From: a virus
Length of the DNA stretch: 22,859 bases
Direction: 5' to 3' (one strand)
Virus record (IMG/VR): IMGVR_UViG_3300025687_000349
Span: 1-22,859 of that record
The position numbers were made by a program, and so were the translations under genes. Position 1 is the first letter of the stretch, and every line of letters begins with the position of its first letter. The notes beneath the pieces were generated by a model. It was given only the letters and a program-made list of their open reading frames with translations. It made no database searches and was not told where the DNA came from. This document shows, piece after piece, positions 1,221 to 21,121 of this stretch.

Positions 1221-1411
1221 TCGCAAATTTCCTCCCTGATTTTTTTGTAGTCAGGCCAGCCTGACTGGCCATTTGTACGCTTAAACAGCAATGTCTGTTG
1301 ACAATACAGGGCTTCTTCATCGAGCGCATCCTGATAATCAGCCTCGCCCACCAACCCAAAGACAAGGCTCAGAAAAGCCACCACGAGAAAAGCCCAGATG
1401 TGCTCGCTCAT
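1217..1411 (-). CDS. small membrane-anchored protein with GWPDYK motif
   Basis: A 64-residue protein. I chose ATG 1411 rather than an upstream in-frame start because it overlaps the TGA of the preceding gene as ATGA. Residues about 5-22 (IWAFLVVAFLSLVFGLVG) form one hydrophobic segment, either a membrane anchor or an uncleaved signal. The rest is soluble, with two cysteines and the motif GWPDYK near the end. The layout (N-terminal helix, ADYQDAL-like segment, YC, GWPDYK) matches a small family I recall from phage genomes with no assigned role. It is not a typical holin (single helix, long soluble tail), but a role at the host membrane is likely. Confidence 0.75.
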   Translation of the reverse strand: MSEHIWAFLVVAFLSLVFGLVGEADYQDALDEEALYCQQTLLFKRTNGQSGWPDYKKIREEICE

Positions 1412-2343
1412 GCCGCCACCTCCTCTGGATCCCAGCACTTGGCCTTGCTGGGTCGCTTGAAAAACCCAAACTTCGGGTCATCCTTGCTGGGCTCGCAAGT
1501 CGCAACAAAAGCAACCCACATCCCCTTGTGAAGATCATCTTCGATGGCTCGCGGTACAGAACCCCAAACCTTGAAGCCTCGGTCATCAATGACCAGCATC
1601 TTGAGGGCTCCGCCCCAATCGCTGTCCTGCCACTTGAGGGTCAGAACCTCGCCGACGATTTCCAATCGATCCTCGGGAACGTCAGGCGCGGCCGCCGCTC
1701 GGGCTTCCTGCTCAGCCTTCTTAGCCTCTCGCTCCGCCTCGATCTTGGCCTCGACGGCTCGCTTATCCGCCAGCAGGAAATCCCCAACAGCGTTCACAAC
1801 GTCTCGCGGCACTCGGCCATTGAAGTAGACATAACACATGAGCGTGCCAGCGAAGGGACCATACTCCTTTAGATAGGGCACGCCCTGCTTCAGAACGGGC
1901 TCGCCAACAGCATTGTTGAAAGATAAGCAGAACGGATAGTAATCTGGCTCCCCGTCCATCGGGTTTTTGAAGGCCGCCTCGGAGCGGCCAAGCGCCTCGA
2001 TAGGTACGTCAGTCAGCTTGTTGTCTGCGGCGGCATCAAAGCCAGCGAGGCTACCGTCTTGAATCCACGGCTCCTTGAACTTGTCCATCGGCAGAAACTG
2101 GCCGCCCATGAAGTGGTCGCTACACTTGCGATCACCTTCCATCCACTCGTGCAGATAGCCGTCGCAAGGCGCGTGGTAAGTAGTCTCCACGCCATCCTTG
2201 TTCTTGCCGCGCACTGGCGGGATGCCGTTGTTACGGTCAGCCATGGCTTTCTCAAGTCGAGTGCGCCATGCCTTGTAGGCGGCATCGCTGGCCTTGCGAT
2301 AGGCCGCGAGCCGTTCTTTCATTGCAATCAGATCAATAGTCAT
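1408..2343 (-). CDS. conserved phage protein with C-terminal OB-fold-like domain
   Basis: A 311-residue protein. Residues 1-190 form a domain I cannot assign, with several conserved-looking aromatic and cysteine residues (HAPCDGYLHEW, FCLSFNNAV). Residues about 190-218 are a charged Ala/Glu/Lys helix, probably a coiled linker. Residues about 228-300 (GEVLTLKW, GGALKMLV, GFKVWGSVP, KFGFFKRP) resemble a small beta-barrel domain seen in many phage proteins near replication and recombination genes. I infer an OB-like fold and possible single-strand DNA binding. The start ATG 2343 has a strong ribosome-binding site (GGGGAG) just after the stop-codon hairpin of the previous gene. It ends in Ala-Ala and overlaps the next gene as ATGA. 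Confidence 0.8.
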   Translation of the reverse strand: MTIDLIAMKERLAAYRKASDAAYKAWRTRLEKAMADRNNGIPPVRGKNKDGVETTYHAPCDGYLHEWMEGDRKCSDHFMGGQFLPMDKFKEPWIQDGSLAGFDAAADNKLTDVPIEALGRSEAAFKNPMDGEPDYYPFCLSFNNAVGEPVLKQGVPYLKEYGPFAGTLMCYVYFNGRVPRDVVNAVGDFLLADKRAVEAKIEAEREAKKAEQEARAAAAPDVPEDRLEIVGEVLTLKWQDSDWGGALKMLVIDDRGFKVWGSVPRAIEDDLHKGMWVAFVATCEPSKDDPKFGFFKRPSKAKCWDPEEVAA

Positions 2344-2363
2344 ACTGTTTTCTCCCCGATAAG

Positions 2364-2379
2364 GGCCGCTTACGCGGCC
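2364..2379 (-). other. stop-codon hairpin, no T-tract
   Basis: Perfect 6-bp inverted repeat ggccgc-ttac-gcggcc at the 3' end of the 86-aa gene. The TAA stop (2370-2372) lies in the 4-base loop. No T run follows on the minus strand, so it is not a classic terminator. The ribosome-binding site of the next gene starts a few bases downstream. The 30-bp stretch 2350-2379 is repeated at 3159-3188 with one mismatch. Confidence 0.8.
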
Positions 2380-2630
2380 TTCGTGATGTGCTGGTCAATA
2401 ACGCGACCTGTTTTAGTGTCAATCAGCCGAACGTCTTGTGCGCGCCCGAGGTCAGCGACCTGTAAATTAAAGTGCCTGCACGCTGTCTTGAAGGGGTACG
2501 CTTTTTTCAGGACGTCTTGCCACTCTGTTTGCGCATACTCAGCAACACCGTCTTTTTCATACTCAGCCTGCATCACTGCGTTGTCGCGCCGTTGAACCTG
2601 AAACCGAAACTGACGAAATCTATTTTCCAT
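2370..2630 (-). CDS. hypothetical protein, early region
   Basis: An 86-residue basic protein of unknown function. The first half is helical and charged (FRFQVQRRDN, MQAEYEKDG); the second half ends in a segment that reads like a small beta-hairpin (DVRLIDTKTGRVI). ATG 2630 has an AAGGAAAGAG purine stretch upstream. It is the first gene after the promoter at 2677-2705, so it heads the second early unit. Its stop codon lies in the loop of a hairpin, and the protein ends Lys-Ala-Ala. Confidence 0.7.
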   Translation of the reverse strand: MENRFRQFRFQVQRRDNAVMQAEYEKDGVAEYAQTEWQDVLKKAYPFKTACRHFNLQVADLGRAQDVRLIDTKTGRVIDQHITKAA

Positions 2631-2676
2631 TGCTATCTCTTTCCTTCTCTGTCAGGACCACCCCGACCACAAAGAG

Positions 2677-2705
2677 ATAATCTCACATCTCCGTGTCGAT
2701 GTATA
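2677..2705 (-). promoter_or_regulatory. sigma70-like promoter P2 of early unit 2
   Basis: Minus strand: -35 TATACA (2700-2705), 17-bp spacer, -10 GATTAT (2677-2682), in the gap between the terminator at 2741-2764 and the gene starting at 2630. The spacer contains CGACACGGA (2690-2698), which also occurs in the spacer of promoter P1 at nearly the same place. The -35 match is weak, so the call rests on position and on the shared spacer motif. Confidence 0.5.
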
Positions 2706-2740
2706 CAAATTGATGCAGGAATATTAGACCGATTTGTCAT

Positions 2741-2764
2741 AAAAAAGGCCGCTGTTATGCGGCC
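2741..2764 (-). terminator. intrinsic terminator of early unit 1
   Basis: Minus strand: GGCCGC-ATAACA-GCGGCC followed by six T, a standard Rho-independent shape. The TAA stop of the 38-aa gene (2755-2757) sits in the loop, so the hairpin also encodes the last two alanines of that protein. It separates early unit 1 (4122 to 2755) from unit 2 (2630 to 492). Confidence 0.82.
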
Positions 2765-2871
2765 TTACTCCTCCCCTTCAGCAGTCGATGAATCGCCTTG
2801 GCCTCTTTGCCCTTGATGCGCGGGTCGCGCTTGATTGCTTTGTCCACCGCTTCTTTGTTGTACTTTGCCAT
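2755..2871 (-). CDS. 38-aa basic microprotein
   Basis: A short gene starting at ATG 2871 after an ideal ribosome-binding site (AAGGAG, six bases before the start) and ending in the loop of a terminator hairpin. The product is highly basic and probably helical (MAKYNKEAVDKAIK, then RIKGKEAKAIHRLLKGR). I recall similar short proteins in other phages of this kind, with no function assigned. Nucleic-acid binding is plausible from the charge. The strong start signal and the exact fit to the terminator make a real gene likely. Confidence 0.72.
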   Translation of the reverse strand: MAKYNKEAVDKAIKRDPRIKGKEAKAIHRLLKGRSKAA

Positions 2872-2911
2872 TTAAGTCTCCTTAACTTTCGATTGAGTGT
2901 GAGGCTATAGT

Positions 2912-3154
2912 TCACAAGACCACGAGACCGAACCTAACCCGCTCAATAACGTCATTCCAAAACTCACTGACTGGGCCTGATTGCCAGCTAATGCAGAAGG
3001 ACTCTGCACCGCTTGAGTCCCAGCAGTAGCCAGAAGGCGCGTCAACAGTGACGACCATTGCCTTCGTGTTACTCCCCGCGACCTCCGAAACAACCCAATC
3101 CATGCTACCGCCCACAGACTCGATCACCCTTAACGCTTGAGCTTTAGTTGCCAT
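2912..3154 (-). CDS. hypothetical protein, early region
   Basis: An 80-residue protein I do not recognise. It starts with a short helical segment (MATKAQALRVIESVGGSMDW) and continues with beta-like segments (AMVVTVDAPSGYCW, SFCISWQSG) and a hydrophobic end. ATG 3154 follows AGGGAGAAGC, a strong ribosome-binding site placed just after the stop-codon hairpin of the upstream gene. It lies 40 bases before the 38-aa gene in the same unit. Unlike its neighbours it does not end in Ala-Ala and has no hairpin at its stop. Confidence 0.68.
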   Translation of the reverse strand: MATKAQALRVIESVGGSMDWVVSEVAGSNTKAMVVTVDAPSGYCWDSSGAESFCISWQSGPVSEFWNDVIERVRFGLVVL

Positions 3155-3172
3155 TTGCTTCTCCCTGATAAG

Positions 3173-3188
3173 GGCCGCTTACGCGGCC
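3173..3188 (-). other. stop-codon hairpin, no T-tract
   Basis: Same inverted repeat ggccgc-ttac-gcggcc as at 2364-2379, with the TAA stop of the 80-aa gene at 3179-3181 in the loop. On the minus strand it continues into TTATCAGGGAGAAGC, the ribosome-binding site of the next gene. The 30-bp block 3159-3188 matches 2350-2379 at 29 positions. Confidence 0.8.
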
Positions 3189-3421
3189 TCATACATGGCA
3201 TTGAACTGCGACAAGATCGCCTCATAGCGATATCGCAAACCTTGCACTCCAAGCTCCGCTCGGCAAATGCTCTGAAACGATCCAACGCCAGAATCACCAA
3301 ATGCGTATGCCTCGCTGGCGGCTTCGCTTTTCACTTCGTGCAACTGCTCTTCTGCCAATGTCAGTACGTCTTCAGCTTCAGCTAAAGCGGCCCAAATATC
3401 GTTGTTGATTGATTCGTTCAT
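3179..3421 (-). CDS. hypothetical helical protein, early region
   Basis: An 80-residue acidic protein. The open frame extends upstream, but I chose ATG 3421 because it follows AGGAGAAAGC at proper spacing and the upstream extension only runs antisense-like through the preceding gene. The sequence is mostly helical (IWAALAEAEDVLTLAEEQLHEVKSE) with heptad-like leucines, suggesting a small coiled coil. It ends Tyr-Glu-Ala-Ala, and its stop lies in a hairpin loop. Function unknown. Confidence 0.7.
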   Translation of the reverse strand: MNESINNDIWAALAEAEDVLTLAEEQLHEVKSEAASEAYAFGDSGVGSFQSICRAELGVQGLRYRYEAILSQFNAMYEAA

Positions 3422-3447
3422 TTTGCTTTCTCCTGTCGAAAGGTTGG

Positions 3448-3463
3448 GGCCGCTTACGCGGCC
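3448..3463 (-). other. stop-codon hairpin, no T-tract
   Basis: Third copy of ggccgc-ttac-gcggcc, with the TAA stop of the 222-aa gene (3454-3456) in the loop. The 16-base core is identical to the copies at 2364 and 3173, but the sequence toward the next ribosome-binding site (CCAACCTTTCGACAGGAG on the minus strand) differs. Confidence 0.8.
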
Positions 3464-4122
3464 ATCTCTGAATAAAAGTTTTCGATCTGATCGTAAGGCC
3501 ACTGGCTCATGTTCGGCTTTCCCTTGCTTTCCCAGAACTCGCGACGAGGCGCGACGAAAGAGCAAATTCGAGCGAAGCTAACCAGACCTTCGTTCTGCTT
3601 GTACCAGTTGACTCGGTAGTAAGGATTTCCGAGGTGGCTCACGCAGTCCCATGCCTGAGTAGTAATCCACTGGTCAAGACGGAAGCCGTCATCCTTGACT
3701 GCCTTGGCGGCGGCTCGCTCCTGCTCGATGATGATCTGAGCTTCGTTCTTAGAAGCAGGAACAAGGTCGGCGTCTTTCATCGCGGCGCGAAGCTCGACCA
3801 ACTCAGCGACTTGGGCAGTCATGTCACCGAAGACTTCGGCGTCGATGTGCTTGGCTTGACGGACGTTGTGTAGATCCATCGGGTAGGCGTCAGATGCCTT
3901 GAGGTATTCAGCGTACAGTTCCTCGTTGATTTCGCCGTCGACAAAGTACGGGATCTCTTCGCGCAACTGAACGTCGCGGGCGCGACGAATGATTTCGTAT
4001 CCGCGTGACAGAGCGGTCATCGCCTCTTTGCGGTTGGCGTTGCTGTTGAACCCAGCATTGAACATCTCAACCGCGAGGTCGCGGTACTGGTCTGAAGTGC
4101 TGAAGCCCTTGCGGTAGCTCAT
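3454..4122 (-). CDS. hypothetical protein, first gene of early unit 1
   Basis: A 222-residue soluble protein of unknown function. The N-terminal third is helical and basic (YRDLAVEMFNAGFNSNANRKEAMTALSRGYE), the middle is charged and helical, and the C-terminal third is rich in aromatic residues (QWITTQAWDCVSHLG, YYRVNWYKQNEG). ATG 4122 has an upstream AGGGAGATAG. As the first gene after promoter P1 it is probably among the earliest expressed. It ends Met-Ala-Ala inside a stop-codon hairpin. No motif lets me assign an enzyme activity. Confidence 0.75.
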   Translation of the reverse strand: MSYRKGFSTSDQYRDLAVEMFNAGFNSNANRKEAMTALSRGYEIIRRARDVQLREEIPYFVDGEINEELYAEYLKASDAYPMDLHNVRQAKHIDAEVFGDMTAQVAELVELRAAMKDADLVPASKNEAQIIIEQERAAAKAVKDDGFRLDQWITTQAWDCVSHLGNPYYRVNWYKQNEGLVSFARICSFVAPRREFWESKGKPNMSQWPYDQIENFYSEMAA

Positions 4123-4155
4123 TTTTCTATCTCCCTATAACCAATCAACATCCCT

Positions 4156-4184
4156 AATATACACACTTCCGTGTCGTTGTGCAA
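4156..4184 (-). promoter_or_regulatory. sigma70-like promoter P1 of early unit 1
   Basis: Minus strand: -35 TTGCAC (4179-4184), 17-bp spacer, -10 TATATT (4156-4161), about 35 bases upstream of ATG 4122. The spacer contains CGACACGGA (4168-4176) as part of ACACGGAAGTGT, whose ends form an inverted repeat. The same CGACACGGA lies in the spacer of P2, suggesting that one factor acts on both. Confidence 0.68.
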
Positions 4185-4497: not shown

Positions 4498-4663
4498 AGT
4501 CTTCGCCAAACTTCTTACGAAACCAGACAGGCCACGGAACCTGTCGGGTAGTGCGCCCATCTCGGTTCCGCCAAACATGACGCGCCGCATAGTATTTGAT
4601 GTCTTCGGCCCACCGCTCCTCTCTCTCCCGATCTTCGATCTTCATCTGCTCGCGCAGGCTCAC
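4454..4663 (-). CDS. small basic hypothetical protein
   Basis: A 69-residue, strongly charged protein. The start is GTG 4663, overlapping the TGA of the oxygenase gene (GTGA), so the two are probably translationally coupled; an internal ATG (at MKIEDRE) is a possible alternative start. The N-terminal 25 residues are a charged helix (REQMKIEDREREERWAEDI). The middle carries WRNRDGRTTRQVPWPVWFRKKFG, a Trp- and Arg-rich stretch that could contact nucleic acid. Function unknown. Confidence 0.65.
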   Translation of the reverse strand: MSLREQMKIEDREREERWAEDIKYYAARHVWRNRDGRTTRQVPWPVWFRKKFGEDFNEYVQRKMAEKKA

Positions 4664-5373
4664 TGATACATCTCCTTCATTTCCAATGTGCGGCTACGGT
4701 TGTGTAGCCAGAAGACCAGCAGGAACCTGTCGCCTTTGTGTACAGGTAGCCCACGGTGCAGTTTCGTAAAGCTCGGGAATATCAGCGCGTGACCTGTAGG
4801 GAGGGGCTTCAGCGTGCCCAAACCATGGAACTCCGTTCCTCCACCCTCGTATTCGCCCGTGTTGAGCGGCACCACCACACTCATATCGCTTGACTCGTCG
4901 TGATGCCATGCGCCCTGCTTCTTGTCTTTGACGTTGTAGTTGGCAAGCTGAATTGATGAGACCTCGGCGCAATCGCGCTGATAAAGGCTGAAAAAGATAG
5001 GATTCAGCACGTTTTGCACAATGAACCACATTGTGCGGTAAAGCTCGGGAACCATGTCGTGAAGGGTGATCTCGGGGATCTGGCGCAGAACGTCCTCGCT
5101 GGGGTTTGTCTCAAACAGCCCCGCCTTCTGCATCTCACGAATCTCTTCAACCAGCATCTTGCAATACTGCCGCCGCAGAAGCGGCACCCTATGCACGTCA
5201 GGAAAAACCTTCTTTATGTGCTTACTTACTGCCAGCTTCTCCAGATCCTCTGTCCCATTTCGCGCTCGAAACTTTGCAATTTGCGGCAGGGAATCCTGCA
5301 CCGATTGATACAACGGCTGATTGATCATCCAGTGGCTTTGCATTGACAATAAGTAATTTTTGAGATTGTACAT
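4660..5373 (-). CDS. 2-oxoglutarate/Fe(II)-dependent oxygenase (prolyl hydroxylase-like)
   Basis: A 237-residue protein with a C-terminal double-stranded beta-helix dioxygenase domain. The iron ligands are visible: H-x-D at His157/Asp159 in WHHDES and the distal His206 in KLHRG. Arg216 in KGDRFLLVFWLH is in the usual place to bind the 2-oxoglutarate carboxylate. The stretch GGGTEFHGLG with LPTGHALIFPS is typical of the 2OG-FeII_Oxy_3 group. The first 120 residues are helical and unassigned. Such enzymes are common in marine phages; known substrates of the superfamily include protein side chains and nucleobases, and the substrate here is unknown. ATG 5373 and ATG 5343 are both possible starts; neither has a good ribosome-binding site. 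Confidence 0.85.
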   Translation of the reverse strand: MYNLKNYLLSMQSHWMINQPLYQSVQDSLPQIAKFRARNGTEDLEKLAVSKHIKKVFPDVHRVPLLRRQYCKMLVEEIREMQKAGLFETNPSEDVLRQIPEITLHDMVPELYRTMWFIVQNVLNPIFFSLYQRDCAEVSSIQLANYNVKDKKQGAWHHDESSDMSVVVPLNTGEYEGGGTEFHGLGTLKPLPTGHALIFPSFTKLHRGLPVHKGDRFLLVFWLHNRSRTLEMKEMYQ

Positions 5374-13113: not shown

Positions 13114-15129
13114 TCAAGCCCCCTTCGCCTGCGGCGCTTGAGCAAACTCAGAGAAGAGATCCATCATTTTGTACATCAGATCGATGCCAGCTTCTTTGTT
13201 TTCGCCATTCATCGGCGTTAAGGTGACAATGCCGTCTTTGTTCTTCATGTCGAAGGCACCAGCGCCCCGTACTGCGCGGCCAGTCATCACAAACTCGCCG
13301 TCTGACAGCATCGCAGGGATATCGTCACTGATCTCCGTGCCTTCGCCGTTGATGTCCCCTGTCATGCGTATGAAAAGCTCGCCGTCCATGTCGCCGCCTT
13401 CAGATTTATACACCGCGCCACCCTGATTAAACATCGGGACTTGCTGTTCCACAGGCAACATCCCCGTAGGTGGTGGAGGCAACATCCCCGTAGGCGGTGT
13501 GTAATTGGGTAGCGGCATGGCTTGGTTGATGTCATTCGGATTAGGCGCTAACAAAATTTCACGCGGGGTAAATTGCTGGCCTTGTGGGATTGGCTGGCCG
13601 CCGCTCAACGTCGGGAAATTGTTAGGTAACAGGCCAAACTCCACAGGATTTGGTGCAGGCTGTCCCATTCTTTTCGCAATCTCCGCTTCAATATTGTACC
13701 GACCAGCCGCATTCATCTGGGTTAGAGGGGTCAGGGGAACGCCTTTTCTGTCTTTGGCTTCGTCATAAGCCAGCTTGCCGATTAATCCCGCCAAGCCAGC
13801 GGTGCCAAGCAAACCGCCGATTCCCATGCCGCCTGCACCGCCTTGGCCGCCGAGACCCAACAGTGATCCCAAATTAAAGCCGCCTTGCTGGCCTCCGCCT
13901 AAGCCGAGAACGCCACCGAGGTTGGAAAGTAAGCCGCGATCATCAGCGCCGGGCATAATAAATTCGCCGATTGAGCCCAAAAAGCCTTGGCCTGCGTAAG
14001 GGCTGATAGCCCCCGCGCCCTGCAATTCTGCAAGAATTTGCTCGAAGTTTAGCCCGCGCGCCATGCCATCTTGTATGGCTTGATCTATGGCTGGATTTCC
14101 TTGCGCCGCCTCTGTCAAGATTTCAGCCGCAGTCTTGCCGCCGCCTCCAATGCCGAGGGTCTGGCCGAGGTTTCCTAGCAAGCCTCGGTTGTCAGCGCCG
14201 GGCATCACATACTCGTAAATGCTGGAGCCAGTTTTCCCTAAATTGCCCAACAAGCCCACGTTGTCAGCGCCGGGCATAATGTATTCGTAAATGCTTCCGA
14301 AAATGTTGGAGCCACCACCTGCTGTATTAGCCAAATTTGCAACTCCCCCGCTTCCGCCAATGTTAAATGTCCCGCCGCCGAAACCGGGTATTTGAAAGCC
14401 GCCTTTGCCGCCGGGCATTGGTGCGGTAAGAGCCGCAATTCCCGCTAAAGGGTTGCCGCTTTTAAATGCGTCATAAGCGCTATAGCCTTTGTTGATTATA
14501 GCCGCGTAAGGTTGCCAAGGGCCCGGTATATACTGAGCCACACTAGCTATAGGCTTGATAACATTTTTGCCCACTTTCTTAATGGACTTCCACGTCTTCT
14601 TGAACCAACCAAACTCTTCTAGTCCGGTGATTGGATTCAAAGAAGCAATGCCAGAGCCAACAACATATTGCTCTGGATCCAGATCGAGTTCCGCAAACCG
14701 CTCACCAACAACCCGCTCGAAGTCGGCGTCCGCCATCATTTCGGGCGGAAGGACAACCTCGCCGGGCGCTAGATGGGCCAAGGTGGTATCAGGGCCACGG
14801 CCAGCTTGTGAAAGCTGAACAGCCATGTCTGCCATTGGGGCCTGCGTCCCAACTTCCGCCGCCTGTGCAAAGCCCATCGCTACTTCAGCGTCCAATGGGT
14901 CTTCTGCGGTTGCGGCGGTGCCCATTAGTTGGGCGATGGTCTCCCGCAACCCTGCGTTTGGATCCATAGGCATTTCGGCAGACATCGCAATGTCTGACTG
15001 CACTTGCGGATCTTGAATATCAATCGGATTGGTGTCGACTAAGCCGCCTCGCGCCATCATCATAGGCGCTTGCGGTCCCATAGGCATTCCAGCCATGGCA
15101 GAAATTCTTTGCTGAAGAAATTGATTCAT
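13114..15129 (-). CDS. 671-aa virion structural protein with MPGAD repeats
   Basis: ATG 15129 overlaps the previous TGA as ATGA. The protein has three parts. Residues about 110-225 (DTTLAHLAPGEVVLP, LDLDPEQYVVGSGIASLNP, KKTWKSIKKVGKNV, AQYIPGPWQPYAA) match a module I recall from many marine phages. Residues 230-460 are Gly-rich with three copies of a 20-residue repeat (IYEYIMPGADNVGLLGNLG and variants). Residues about 580-650 (GTEISDDIPAMLSDGEFVMT) match a second common phage module, whose LSDGEFV resembles the APGEVVLP of the first. Virion location is likely; precise role unknown, perhaps ejection or tail-fibre attachment. Confidence 0.78.
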   Translation of the reverse strand: MNQFLQQRISAMAGMPMGPQAPMMMARGGLVDTNPIDIQDPQVQSDIAMSAEMPMDPNAGLRETIAQLMGTAATAEDPLDAEVAMGFAQAAEVGTQAPMADMAVQLSQAGRGPDTTLAHLAPGEVVLPPEMMADADFERVVGERFAELDLDPEQYVVGSGIASLNPITGLEEFGWFKKTWKSIKKVGKNVIKPIASVAQYIPGPWQPYAAIINKGYSAYDAFKSGNPLAGIAALTAPMPGGKGGFQIPGFGGGTFNIGGSGGVANLANTAGGGSNIFGSIYEYIMPGADNVGLLGNLGKTGSSIYEYVMPGADNRGLLGNLGQTLGIGGGGKTAAEILTEAAQGNPAIDQAIQDGMARGLNFEQILAELQGAGAISPYAGQGFLGSIGEFIMPGADDRGLLSNLGGVLGLGGGQQGGFNLGSLLGLGGQGGAGGMGIGGLLGTAGLAGLIGKLAYDEAKDRKGVPLTPLTQMNAAGRYNIEAEIAKRMGQPAPNPVEFGLLPNNFPTLSGGQPIPQGQQFTPREILLAPNPNDINQAMPLPNYTPPTGMLPPPPTGMLPVEQQVPMFNQGGAVYKSEGGDMDGELFIRMTGDINGEGTEISDDIPAMLSDGEFVMTGRAVRGAGAFDMKNKDGIVTLTPMNGENKEAGIDLMYKMMDLFSEFAQAPQAKGA
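13915..14295 (-). repeat. three-copy MPGAD(N/D)xGLLxNLG protein repeat
   Basis: Copies at residues 279-299, 303-322 and 387-405 of the 671-aa protein. Copies 1 and 2 are nearly adjacent; copy 3 is separated by about 65 residues containing a helical insert (AAEILTEAAQGNPAIDQAIQ). Each copy pairs an aromatic strand (SIYEYIMPGA) with a Gly/Leu turn, like a repeated structural hairpin. Confidence 0.8.
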
Positions 15130-19750: not shown

Positions 19751-20445
19751 TAGGCAATCCTGTATATCGTCAAATCAGGCGCAACACGGAAAGACGCGCG
19801 AGACTGGTCTTGCGACAAGGCCCTCTCAAACTCTTCTTCGTAAAGCTGTTTTAGCAAAGGTACTTTCTCGGGGGTCCGTTTTAGCGCCATGTAATAGGCA
19901 AGACCGGCCGCAAGGCATGGATAAAAGCGGAATGGCACTTCCATGGTGTTTGTGCCAGCGTCCGCGTCATCCATTCGGCTGAGCGTGTTGAGGTATAGGG
20001 TATATGTTGAACTTTTGTCTGGCGCAGGCCAGATCGTAATTGTCGGACTGATTTGCTTATCAATAAAATATTGATTGGGCTTGCCTGTGCTCGTTTTTGT
20101 CGCAATGTGGGCGTACTCGGCACGAGACAGCTTCGTCAGCGGCAAATCCGTCGTTGTGCCAGAGACGGTTTCCCTAACAAACACGTCAAGCACGTCAATC
20201 ACAGAAGTCGGATTGGTCGAATCAATCGTGTATACAATAGTATCTTTTACTGCACTTATTGATTTTTGATTGATTGTCCATTGGTTTAAGCCGCGATTAG
20301 CCCACTCCGCAAGCATCAGGTTAAGGGACCGCTGGGCCGTTTTGAGGTCGTAACCAGTGCGAAGCTCTAATCCGCAACGCTCAAACGCCTCTTCTACATA
20401 ATCCGCTACATCTAACTCAAAATCTTTACTGCCGCTCGTCGCCAT
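19750..20445 (-). CDS. head-tail adaptor / tail tubular protein A (P22 gp4-, T7 gp11-like)
   Basis: A 231-residue protein from ATG 20445; an upstream in-frame GTG at 20454 is possible. Recognisable features: the N-terminal helices FELDVADYVEEAFERCGLELRTGYDLKTAQRSLNLMLAEWANRGLNQW, the strand region with DVLDVFVRE and LPLTKLSRAEYA, the PNQYFIDKQISPTITIWPAPD hairpin and the C-terminal helix LYEEEFERALSQDQSRA. This is the layout of the adaptor that bridges portal and tail hub in short-tailed phages. Its start lies 20 bases inside the preceding gene. It supports the podovirus-type assignment of the window. Confidence 0.82.
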   Translation of the reverse strand: MATSGSKDFELDVADYVEEAFERCGLELRTGYDLKTAQRSLNLMLAEWANRGLNQWTINQKSISAVKDTIVYTIDSTNPTSVIDVLDVFVRETVSGTTTDLPLTKLSRAEYAHIATKTSTGKPNQYFIDKQISPTITIWPAPDKSSTYTLYLNTLSRMDDADAGTNTMEVPFRFYPCLAAGLAYYMALKRTPEKVPLLKQLYEEEFERALSQDQSRASFRVAPDLTIYRIA

Positions 20446-21121
20446 CTTCAGCACCCGCGTATAGGTTGTTGAAAACCTGATTTACGTCCAAGGTGTAGTC
20501 TAAATCAGATTTTGAATAATGGATATGCTGAGAGGGTCGGAAGTCTGGAGCGCCTTCTCCGGTCTCAAACCATGCGGGGTGCGTCACCCGCACTCGATTG
20601 TTTGGCAACGCCACTATGTTGCCTGTCCATGGCCCCGCATCTAGTAGCTCAAGAACATGGCTTTGTTTGTGCTGAGCGGGATCGTCAGCGATCTCGTTTT
20701 CGGCATAATCCACAGTGAAATAATATTTGGCGGGGTACATCTCCCCGTCAATAAGCGCGAGCCAAGGGCACGGCGTTGCTCTGTCAAGCACATAAACGGC
20801 ATGATGATGAGAGCTACAATCCCAAGGCTGAGCCGCCCAAACGGGCATTGGCTCTGGCCACTCCTCCATCGGAGTATCGCCCACCAGCGCAGTAATCGGC
20901 ATTCTCGCCCACATCGCTCCGCCGTGAACATTCGGCTCGTCGGTGTCGTATGTCTCAGCCCCCGTGAAAATTAACTGGAAGCTAAGGCAACGGGTGGGCA
21001 TTGTAGTGACCGCAATAGCCATGGCGTGAATAAATTCGCCGTGGTATTTTTGATGGTTATGCGTGTACTCCCTGCGTACCCAGCACTTGAAGTGCGGGAT
21101 ATTACTCTGCAAATAAGCCAT
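20426..21121 (-). CDS. conserved phage protein of unknown role (231 aa)
   Basis: A 231-residue protein with ATG 21121 after a GGGAGATAG ribosome-binding site. It is rich in Trp, His, Met and Pro (HFKCWVRREYTHNHQKYHGEF, GGAMWARMPITALVG, WPEPMPVWAAQPWDCSSHHHAVYVLDR), with a jelly-roll-like scatter of short strands and many His. I recall similar proteins upstream of adaptor genes in marine phages, unannotated. The paired histidines (SSHHHAVYV, SQHIHYSK) could be metal ligands. Virion or assembly role inferred from position only. Confidence 0.75.
   Translation of the reverse strand: MAYLQSNIPHFKCWVRREYTHNHQKYHGEFIHAMAIAVTTMPTRCLSFQLIFTGAETYDTDEPNVHGGAMWARMPITALVGDTPMEEWPEPMPVWAAQPWDCSSHHHAVYVLDRATPCPWLALIDGEMYPAKYYFTVDYAENEIADDPAQHKQSHVLELLDAGPWTGNIVALPNNRVRVTHPAWFETGEGAPDFRPSQHIHYSKSDLDYTLDVNQVFNNLYAGAEDGDERQ

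Follow-up and report, generated by a model that had tools for sequence, protein, structure and literature searches.

A recurring block of about 30 bp that joins one small gene to the next was found in the DNA of an uncultured virus, and it is probably a standard connector between neighboring genes in the accessory operons of certain uncultured tailed phages, one that allows genes to be swapped with their expressibility kept. It looks like a standard connector because related phages have different genes on either side of it. The connector would consist of the last codons of the upstream gene, a short G+C hairpin whose loop holds the stop codon, a spacer of 2-8 nt, and an AGGGAGA ribosome-binding site. 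Sequence comparison shows that the hairpin is conserved as an RNA pairing, that it stands in many gene-pair contexts, and that genes change exactly at the block in near-identical phages. How single small genes are exchanged among phages with expression kept is a long-standing question, to which such a connector would be a concrete and testable answer. The window (i.e., the whole stretch of DNA that was analyzed) is a complete IMG/VR record of 22,859 bp.

Gene junctions in the window

An earlier note, made from the letters of this DNA, had described three gene ends in an identical 16-base inverted repeat with TAA in the loop, a fourth in the same stem with another loop and a T6 tract, and a 30-bp block repeated with one mismatch that takes in the next Shine-Dalgarno sequence. 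This description proved accurate (Table 1). The minus-strand genes A, B, and E end in GGCCGC-GTAA-GCGGCC, the three 16-mers being identical, and the fourth hairpin, at the end of gene D, occupies 2747-2764 with its T6 at 2741-2746; a terminator-like signal was found at 2766-2745. Positions 2350-2380 and 3159-3189, which hold hairpin, stop codon, and the next ribosome-binding site, are identical at 30 of 31 positions and run on through CTTATC(A/G)GGGAGAA, i.e., the ribosome-binding sites of genes C and F. In shuffled sequence the 16-mer is expected about 0.06 times per window when at most two mismatches are allowed, and none of 100 shuffles reached the observed count; a chance origin of the hairpin copies is excluded.

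Table 1. Genes, junction hairpins, and associated elements of the window.
Feature	Position	Strand	Remarks
Gene A	3454..4122	-	222 aa; without a family match; C-terminus ...EMAA* encoded in hairpin 1; 92% identical in L001
Hairpin 1, GGCCGC-GTAA-GCGGCC	3448..3463	-	Stop of gene A in loop; followed by a differing spacer, CCAACC...AGGAGA
Gene B	3179..3421	-	80 aa; small-gene family with the same hairpin end in other phages and other genes behind it
30-bp junction block, first copy	3159..3188	-	Hairpin 2 (3173-3188, stop of gene B) + CTTATC + AGGGAGAA, ribosome-binding site of gene C
Gene C	2912..3154	-	80 aa; ends without hairpin (TAG)
Gene D	2755..2871	-	38 aa; in L001, L002, and L055 ends without hairpin, with another gene next
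Terminator form, GGCCGC-ATAACA-GCGGCC-T6	2741..2764	-	Stop of gene D in loop; L003 version GGCCGT-ATAACA-ACGGCC-T6, a compensatory change
Promoter/operator-like element, TTGTATACATCGACACGGAGATGTGAGATTAT	2677..2708	-	Between terminator and gene E, upstream of E; the site is terminator plus promoter-like element
Gene E	2370..2630	-	86 aa; C-terminus ...ITKAA* encoded in hairpin 3
30-bp junction block, second copy	2350..2379	-	Hairpin 3 (2364-2379, stop of gene E) + CTTATC + GGGGAGAA, ribosome-binding site of gene F
Gene F	1408..2343	-	311 aa; GGCCGC-ATGA-GCGGCC end in L006 and L007, where an extra gene comes next
Promoter/operator-like element	4155..4183	-	Upstream of gene A; shares ACACGGA-NN-TGTG with the element at 2677

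Three of the four hairpins (at 3448, 3173, and 2364) are followed by CTTATC or CCAACC and have no T-tract, which is present at 2741-2764 only. At these three sites the next start lies 18-26 nt from the hairpin, and no promoter-like match was found on the same strand. The junction from gene C to gene D (2912/2871) is without a hairpin. No Rfam match was obtained for the window at E <= 0.5, and no Pfam match for genes A-F. These may be early genes, as judged only from their small size and the promoter-like sites. The ACACGGA-NN-TGTG sites upstream of genes E and A are also present in contig L001, and two copies were seen in L003; the element is possibly a phage-specific regulated promoter. Elsewhere, the window encodes a DUF3799 PDDEXK-like nuclease (43-498, plus), a Staphylococcal-nuclease-like protein (664-1119, minus), a protein with a weak 2OG oxygenase-like match (4660-5373, minus), and a protein of a PHROG labelled ferredoxin (20426-21121, minus), and a 53-nt repeat occurs three times (13922-14295) inside a gene of 671 aa that shows weak tape-measure similarity.

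Pairing of the stem

Across 40 distinct junctions, part of which were picked by their stem so that pairing is inflated and the information lies in the cases with wobbles or an alternative stem, 97.9% of cells were paired compared with 90.9% in shuffles. Cells changed on both sides numbered 12, against 3.4 in shuffles, and none of 500 shuffles reached the observed pairing or covariation score. G-U wobbles occur at four of the six stem pairs, and pairing drops to 20-76% in slid registers. A scan with the ribosome-binding-site half, in which the 5' arms were not preselected, gave 22 more junctions besides matches without a hairpin. Their arms include GGTCGC, GGTTGC, AGCCGC, and CGCCGC opposite GCGGCC, and GGCCGC opposite GCGGTC, with two 7-nt loops; all 22 either pair with a wobble or lose the outermost pair only. 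A scan for other Ala-Ala stems yielded 16 contigs, all paired once G-U was counted, and the compensatory change in the terminator of L003 (Table 1) is an independent one. Folding of whole junctions was not always better than that of shuffled sequence (z from -0.03 to -2.58). By these comparisons, the stem is conserved as an RNA pairing, and we infer a role of the hairpin in expression; RNA processing or stability and coupling, which the earlier note had named, would be possible roles.

Nearly all upstream proteins end in Ala-Ala, as they would if selection acted at the protein level, namely, if a C-terminal Ala-Ala (a ClpXP-type degron) were needed and GCC-GCG-TAA paired incidentally. Such a signal is very improbable because an Ala can go while the pairing stays: the GGTCGC and GGTTGC arms encode Val-Ala. 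Moreover, conservation extends to the non-coding 3' arm, which covaries with the third base of the penultimate codon, and in L003 the frame differs, so that the likely upstream gene does not end in Ala-Ala.

The same variants bear on whether the palindrome acts as DNA, i.e., as a site bound by a phage or host protein or dedicated to recombination, without any function in RNA, as with the 17-bp dyads of Cluster O mycobacteriophages. The arms do form a nearly perfect palindrome, genes are gained or lost at the repeats (see below), and a similar event took place at a DNA dyad in Cluster O phages (PMC4351075). However, the orientation is strict with the gene and the position is set by the stop codon, GGTCGC, GGTTGC, and GCGGTC keep G-U pairs that exist in RNA only, and some phages of this group have the alternative stem GGCGGC...GCCGCC, with which a site recognized by its sequence would be lost; a purely DNA-level function is thus considered improbable, and an RNA pairing is the preferred reading of the stem.

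Gene change at the block in close relatives

The contigs L001, L002, L003, L006, and L007 represent the same kind of phage as the window, with mostly 78-97% DNA identity over long stretches; the virion protein is 98% identical to that of the window in the contig of L001 and 87% in that of L003. With hp for hairpin and term for terminator, the gene order is A-hp-B-hp-C-D-term in the window, A-hp-B'-hp-D-X-term in L001, A-hp-D-X-term in L002, and A'-hp-D'-term in L003, where D' is an apparent fusion. L002 thus equals L001 minus one gene (B') and one copy of the 30-bp block. To the left of the hairpin, 116 nt of L002 are identical to L001 copy 1, and to its right L002 agrees with L001 copy 2 (60 nt at 98%), the 30-bp block itself being common to all. 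When L001 was joined in silico at its two repeats and compared with L002, 465 of the 477 aligned positions were identical. This difference matches what would be expected from recombination between direct repeats, by insertion or deletion alike, and speaks for the suggestion of the earlier note that the block provides homology for gene shuffling. The change of genes at the block is directly visible in these alignments; recombination between copies is what we infer as its cause, because the same ~30 bp recurs at several junctions, both within a genome and across relatives.

Other junctions of these phages differ in a similar manner. At the terminator copy, the upstream genes of L002 and the window differ and the downstream DNA is 97% identical; in L003 a different gene occupies the promoter side of the 30-bp block; and in L006 and L007 an extra gene stands behind gene F (Table 1). 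A search of related phages for the block with different genes on its flanks, as the earlier note had suggested, therefore found such cases (L001, L002, L003, L006), and an identical short sequence stands where the flanking genes differ in L001, L002, the window, and L003. The same note had named absence of the stems in relatives that keep the genes as evidence against its proposal, and such absence was mostly not observed: the hairpin of gene A is retained in L001 and L002, whereas gene D is without one in L001, L002, and L055.

In L003, the gene in the place of A stops at a TGA just before the stem (3720-3735, minus), out of frame with the TAA of the loop. The likely upstream gene of L003 thus stops in another frame, and the block does not require its loop to hold the stop that is used. 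Gene D of this contig is apparently fused to a different N-terminal part of 97 aa (3322-3720, minus), where the window has separate genes C and D.

Gene turnover at hairpin junctions was compared with that at other junctions in contigs selected by carrying the motif, with nine hairpin families, a simple gene caller, and pairs that are not independent. Among small upstream genes common to contigs, at least two downstream families were found for 8 of 9 with a hairpin and 31 of 61 others (Fisher p = 0.038). For pairs 80-95% identical, the downstream gene differed in 15 of 20 hairpin pairs compared with 49 of 204 (24%) other pairs, and for pairs more than 95% identical there was no excess of downstream change (14% vs 14%). 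The excess is modest, and suggestive only, because the pairs are not independent and the contigs were picked by the motif.

The copies might instead be recent functionless duplications in one phage lineage, with the swapping being ordinary phage mosaicism. The copies of the window and L001 are nearly identical, and small phage genes turn over fast everywhere, as the 24% of non-hairpin pairs illustrates. Nevertheless, the same architecture recurs across contig groups, two of them large and several small, with few or no common proteins in the stretches compared, and this breadth, together with the covariation of the stem, has already weakened the explanation to the point of making it highly unlikely.

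Occurrence across virus and prokaryote collections

The pattern GGCCGC-NTRA-GCGGCC followed by 2-8 nt and AGGGAGA was found in 54 IMG/VR stretches, compared with four places in 257 Gb of prokaryote genomes. The 48 whole contigs that were checked have 1-3 copies each, and a reversed control pattern gave 0 matches. About 50 upstream families are represented at 81 junctions; behind the upstream family of gene B stand five different downstream families, and four upstream families precede the downstream family D7. The claim that hairpin, stop codon, and ribosome-binding site travel together between unrelated genes is supported by this, since close relatives and dozens of contigs keep the block while its neighbors differ. 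The idea of a single junction unit needs refinement, though: the hairpin follows the upstream gene, its presence being constant in 39 of 41 hairpin-bearing gene families and mixed in the other two, and either the spacer and ribosome-binding-site half or a T-tract may come after it. In families U4, U12, and U19, the hairpin is followed by a T-run in one contig and by a ribosome-binding site in another; both forms therefore occur behind the same gene.

By common proteins, the carrier contigs fall into a group of 51 (including the TTTACC spacer type), a group of 20 with the window, and several small groups, and terminase families differ among carriers; the separation of the groups is provisional because the loci are fragments. 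It is a tentative possibility that a transferable RNA connector has spread between phage groups with few or no common genes, as a general assembly standard by which accessory genes would be exchanged in an integron-like manner with no integrase.

L068-L077, from phages whose virion protein is 75% identical to that of the window, have a second version of the stem, GGCGGC...GCCGCC with CA-AGGGAGA behind it; two copies each are present in L071 and L075. In a separate phage group (L079, L080, L083, L089, L090, L108), TTTACCAAGGGAGAAGG is the ribosome-binding region after AT-rich sequence, without a hairpin. The ribosome-binding-site half alone (TTTACCAAGGGAGA) is found in 59 contigs; it is not specific because unrelated contigs without a hairpin match too. 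It is also a short sequence, and gene A has AGGGAGA as well, with no hairpin before it. Against 50,697 phage records, the window had no nucleotide match and no match was found for the gene A protein. Matches to the block in these records were partial only and were judged to be due to chance; several lay within genes for the terminase small subunit, on the opposite strand. The nearest isolates, DSL-LC04, HTVC027P, and CRP-901, have 0-2 stop-in-loop hairpins per 50 kb, none of the block type.

Proposed working of the connector

Homologous recombination between copies of the block would insert, delete, or replace one gene, and after the exchange each gene would keep its stop codon and ribosome-binding site. 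In the mRNA, the hairpin would form after the terminating ribosome leaves and would close the 3' end of the upstream cistron. The next ribosome-binding site would stay outside the stem, and therefore a new neighbor could not easily bury it. Together with a T-tract, the hairpin would be the operon-end (terminator) form, and the two forms would interconvert by context. In E. coli, ribosomes at a nearby stop codon repress terminators (PMC4824070), so that a stop in the loop would allow the hairpin only after release; in the T6 form, termination could thus be coupled to translation.

From the same observation, the hairpins could be viewed simply as ordinary intrinsic terminators, or attenuators gated by ribosomes, whose T-tract was lost or shortened and whose shared sequence is a favored stem. 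The T6 of one window copy, the T-runs behind the same hairpin in other families (L011, L040, L053), and the many ATAA-type blocks that run on into TTT are in line with this, and translation could gate termination through a stop in the loop. This account is nonetheless rather unlikely: three of the four window copies have another sequence in place of the T-tract, and terminators alone leave unexplained the fixed distance to AGGGAGA and a count in viruses far above that in 257 Gb of cellular genomes.

If the connector is moreover a general assembly standard, which is the more tentative reading, any small gene that ends in it would slot into an operon and be automatically terminated and insulated, with a working start site next to it. 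With the connector as proposed, the unit of exchange would be one gene with its 3' hairpin, and the crossover would fall in a mostly non-coding stretch of 30 bp. The motif may help in locating accessory genes on contigs of uncultured phages, and the block may be a natural part for insulated operon design.

Comparison with known systems

Stem-loop cassettes between small accessory genes, the PeSLs, were reportedly described by Arbiol et al. in 2010 and Comeau et al. in 2014, and are said to have been proposed for modular gene shuffling. In the accounts given by citing papers (PMC4503421, PMC4177764), PeSLs (promoter early stem-loops) are mobile regulatory cassettes of T4-type phages. The block is like them in placing a stem-loop or terminator after the upstream gene, as at the four hairpin-bearing gene ends of the window, and in being repeated at the boundaries of exchanged genes, and positions 2764-2677 combine a terminator with a promoter-like element. 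PeSLs differ in having an early promoter within the cassette, which is absent at three of the four window sites, and the window hairpin encloses the stop codon and is then followed by a ribosome-binding site. No T4-like phage was among the 15 listed virion-protein relatives (DSL-LC04, HTVC027P, and CRP-901 at the top), and no link of the carriers to T4-type phages was found through virion-protein relatives or by nucleotide in the 50,697 phage records. The best reading of the block appears to be that of a mostly promoterless PeSL analogue.

In Cluster K mycobacteriophages, many different small genes are directly preceded by short repeats with a ribosome-binding site, the start-associated sequences (SAS). 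An upstream inverted repeat accompanies half of these repeats (extended SAS, ESAS), the stop codon of the previous gene sometimes lies inside the repeat, and RNA pairing of the ESAS inverted repeats had little support in that study (PMC3203893). The linkage of an upstream inverted repeat to a ribosome-binding-site repeat is common to both systems. The SAS is a 13-bp sequence, GGGATAGGAGCCC, at 3-7 bp before the start, whereas the block has CTTATCAGGGAGAA, and, compared with ESAS, pairing in the block covaries and the stop codon is in the loop. In Cluster O, Corndog gene 14 is flanked by two copies of a 17-bp dyad, and other phages have one copy and no gene; the dyads are often inside genes and are thought to be protein-binding DNA (PMC4351075). 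The logic is that of L001 and L002, although the dyads are not tied to stop codons or ribosome-binding sites. Conserved boundary sequences are mentioned in connection with homologous exchange of phage modules (PMC3029335). They are alike in being short common sequences at gene boundaries, proposed as points of homologous recombination between modules. The lambdoid boundary sequences are not known to include a conserved stop-codon hairpin. Intrinsic terminators that overlap stop codons share the G+C stem and, at 2741-2764, the T6, but the other window copies are without a T-tract. By analogy, then, and apart from the PeSL promoter at three of four sites and the SAS sequence, the block would work like a PeSL and like the dyads around Corndog gene 14, and it resembles the SAS/ESAS repeats.
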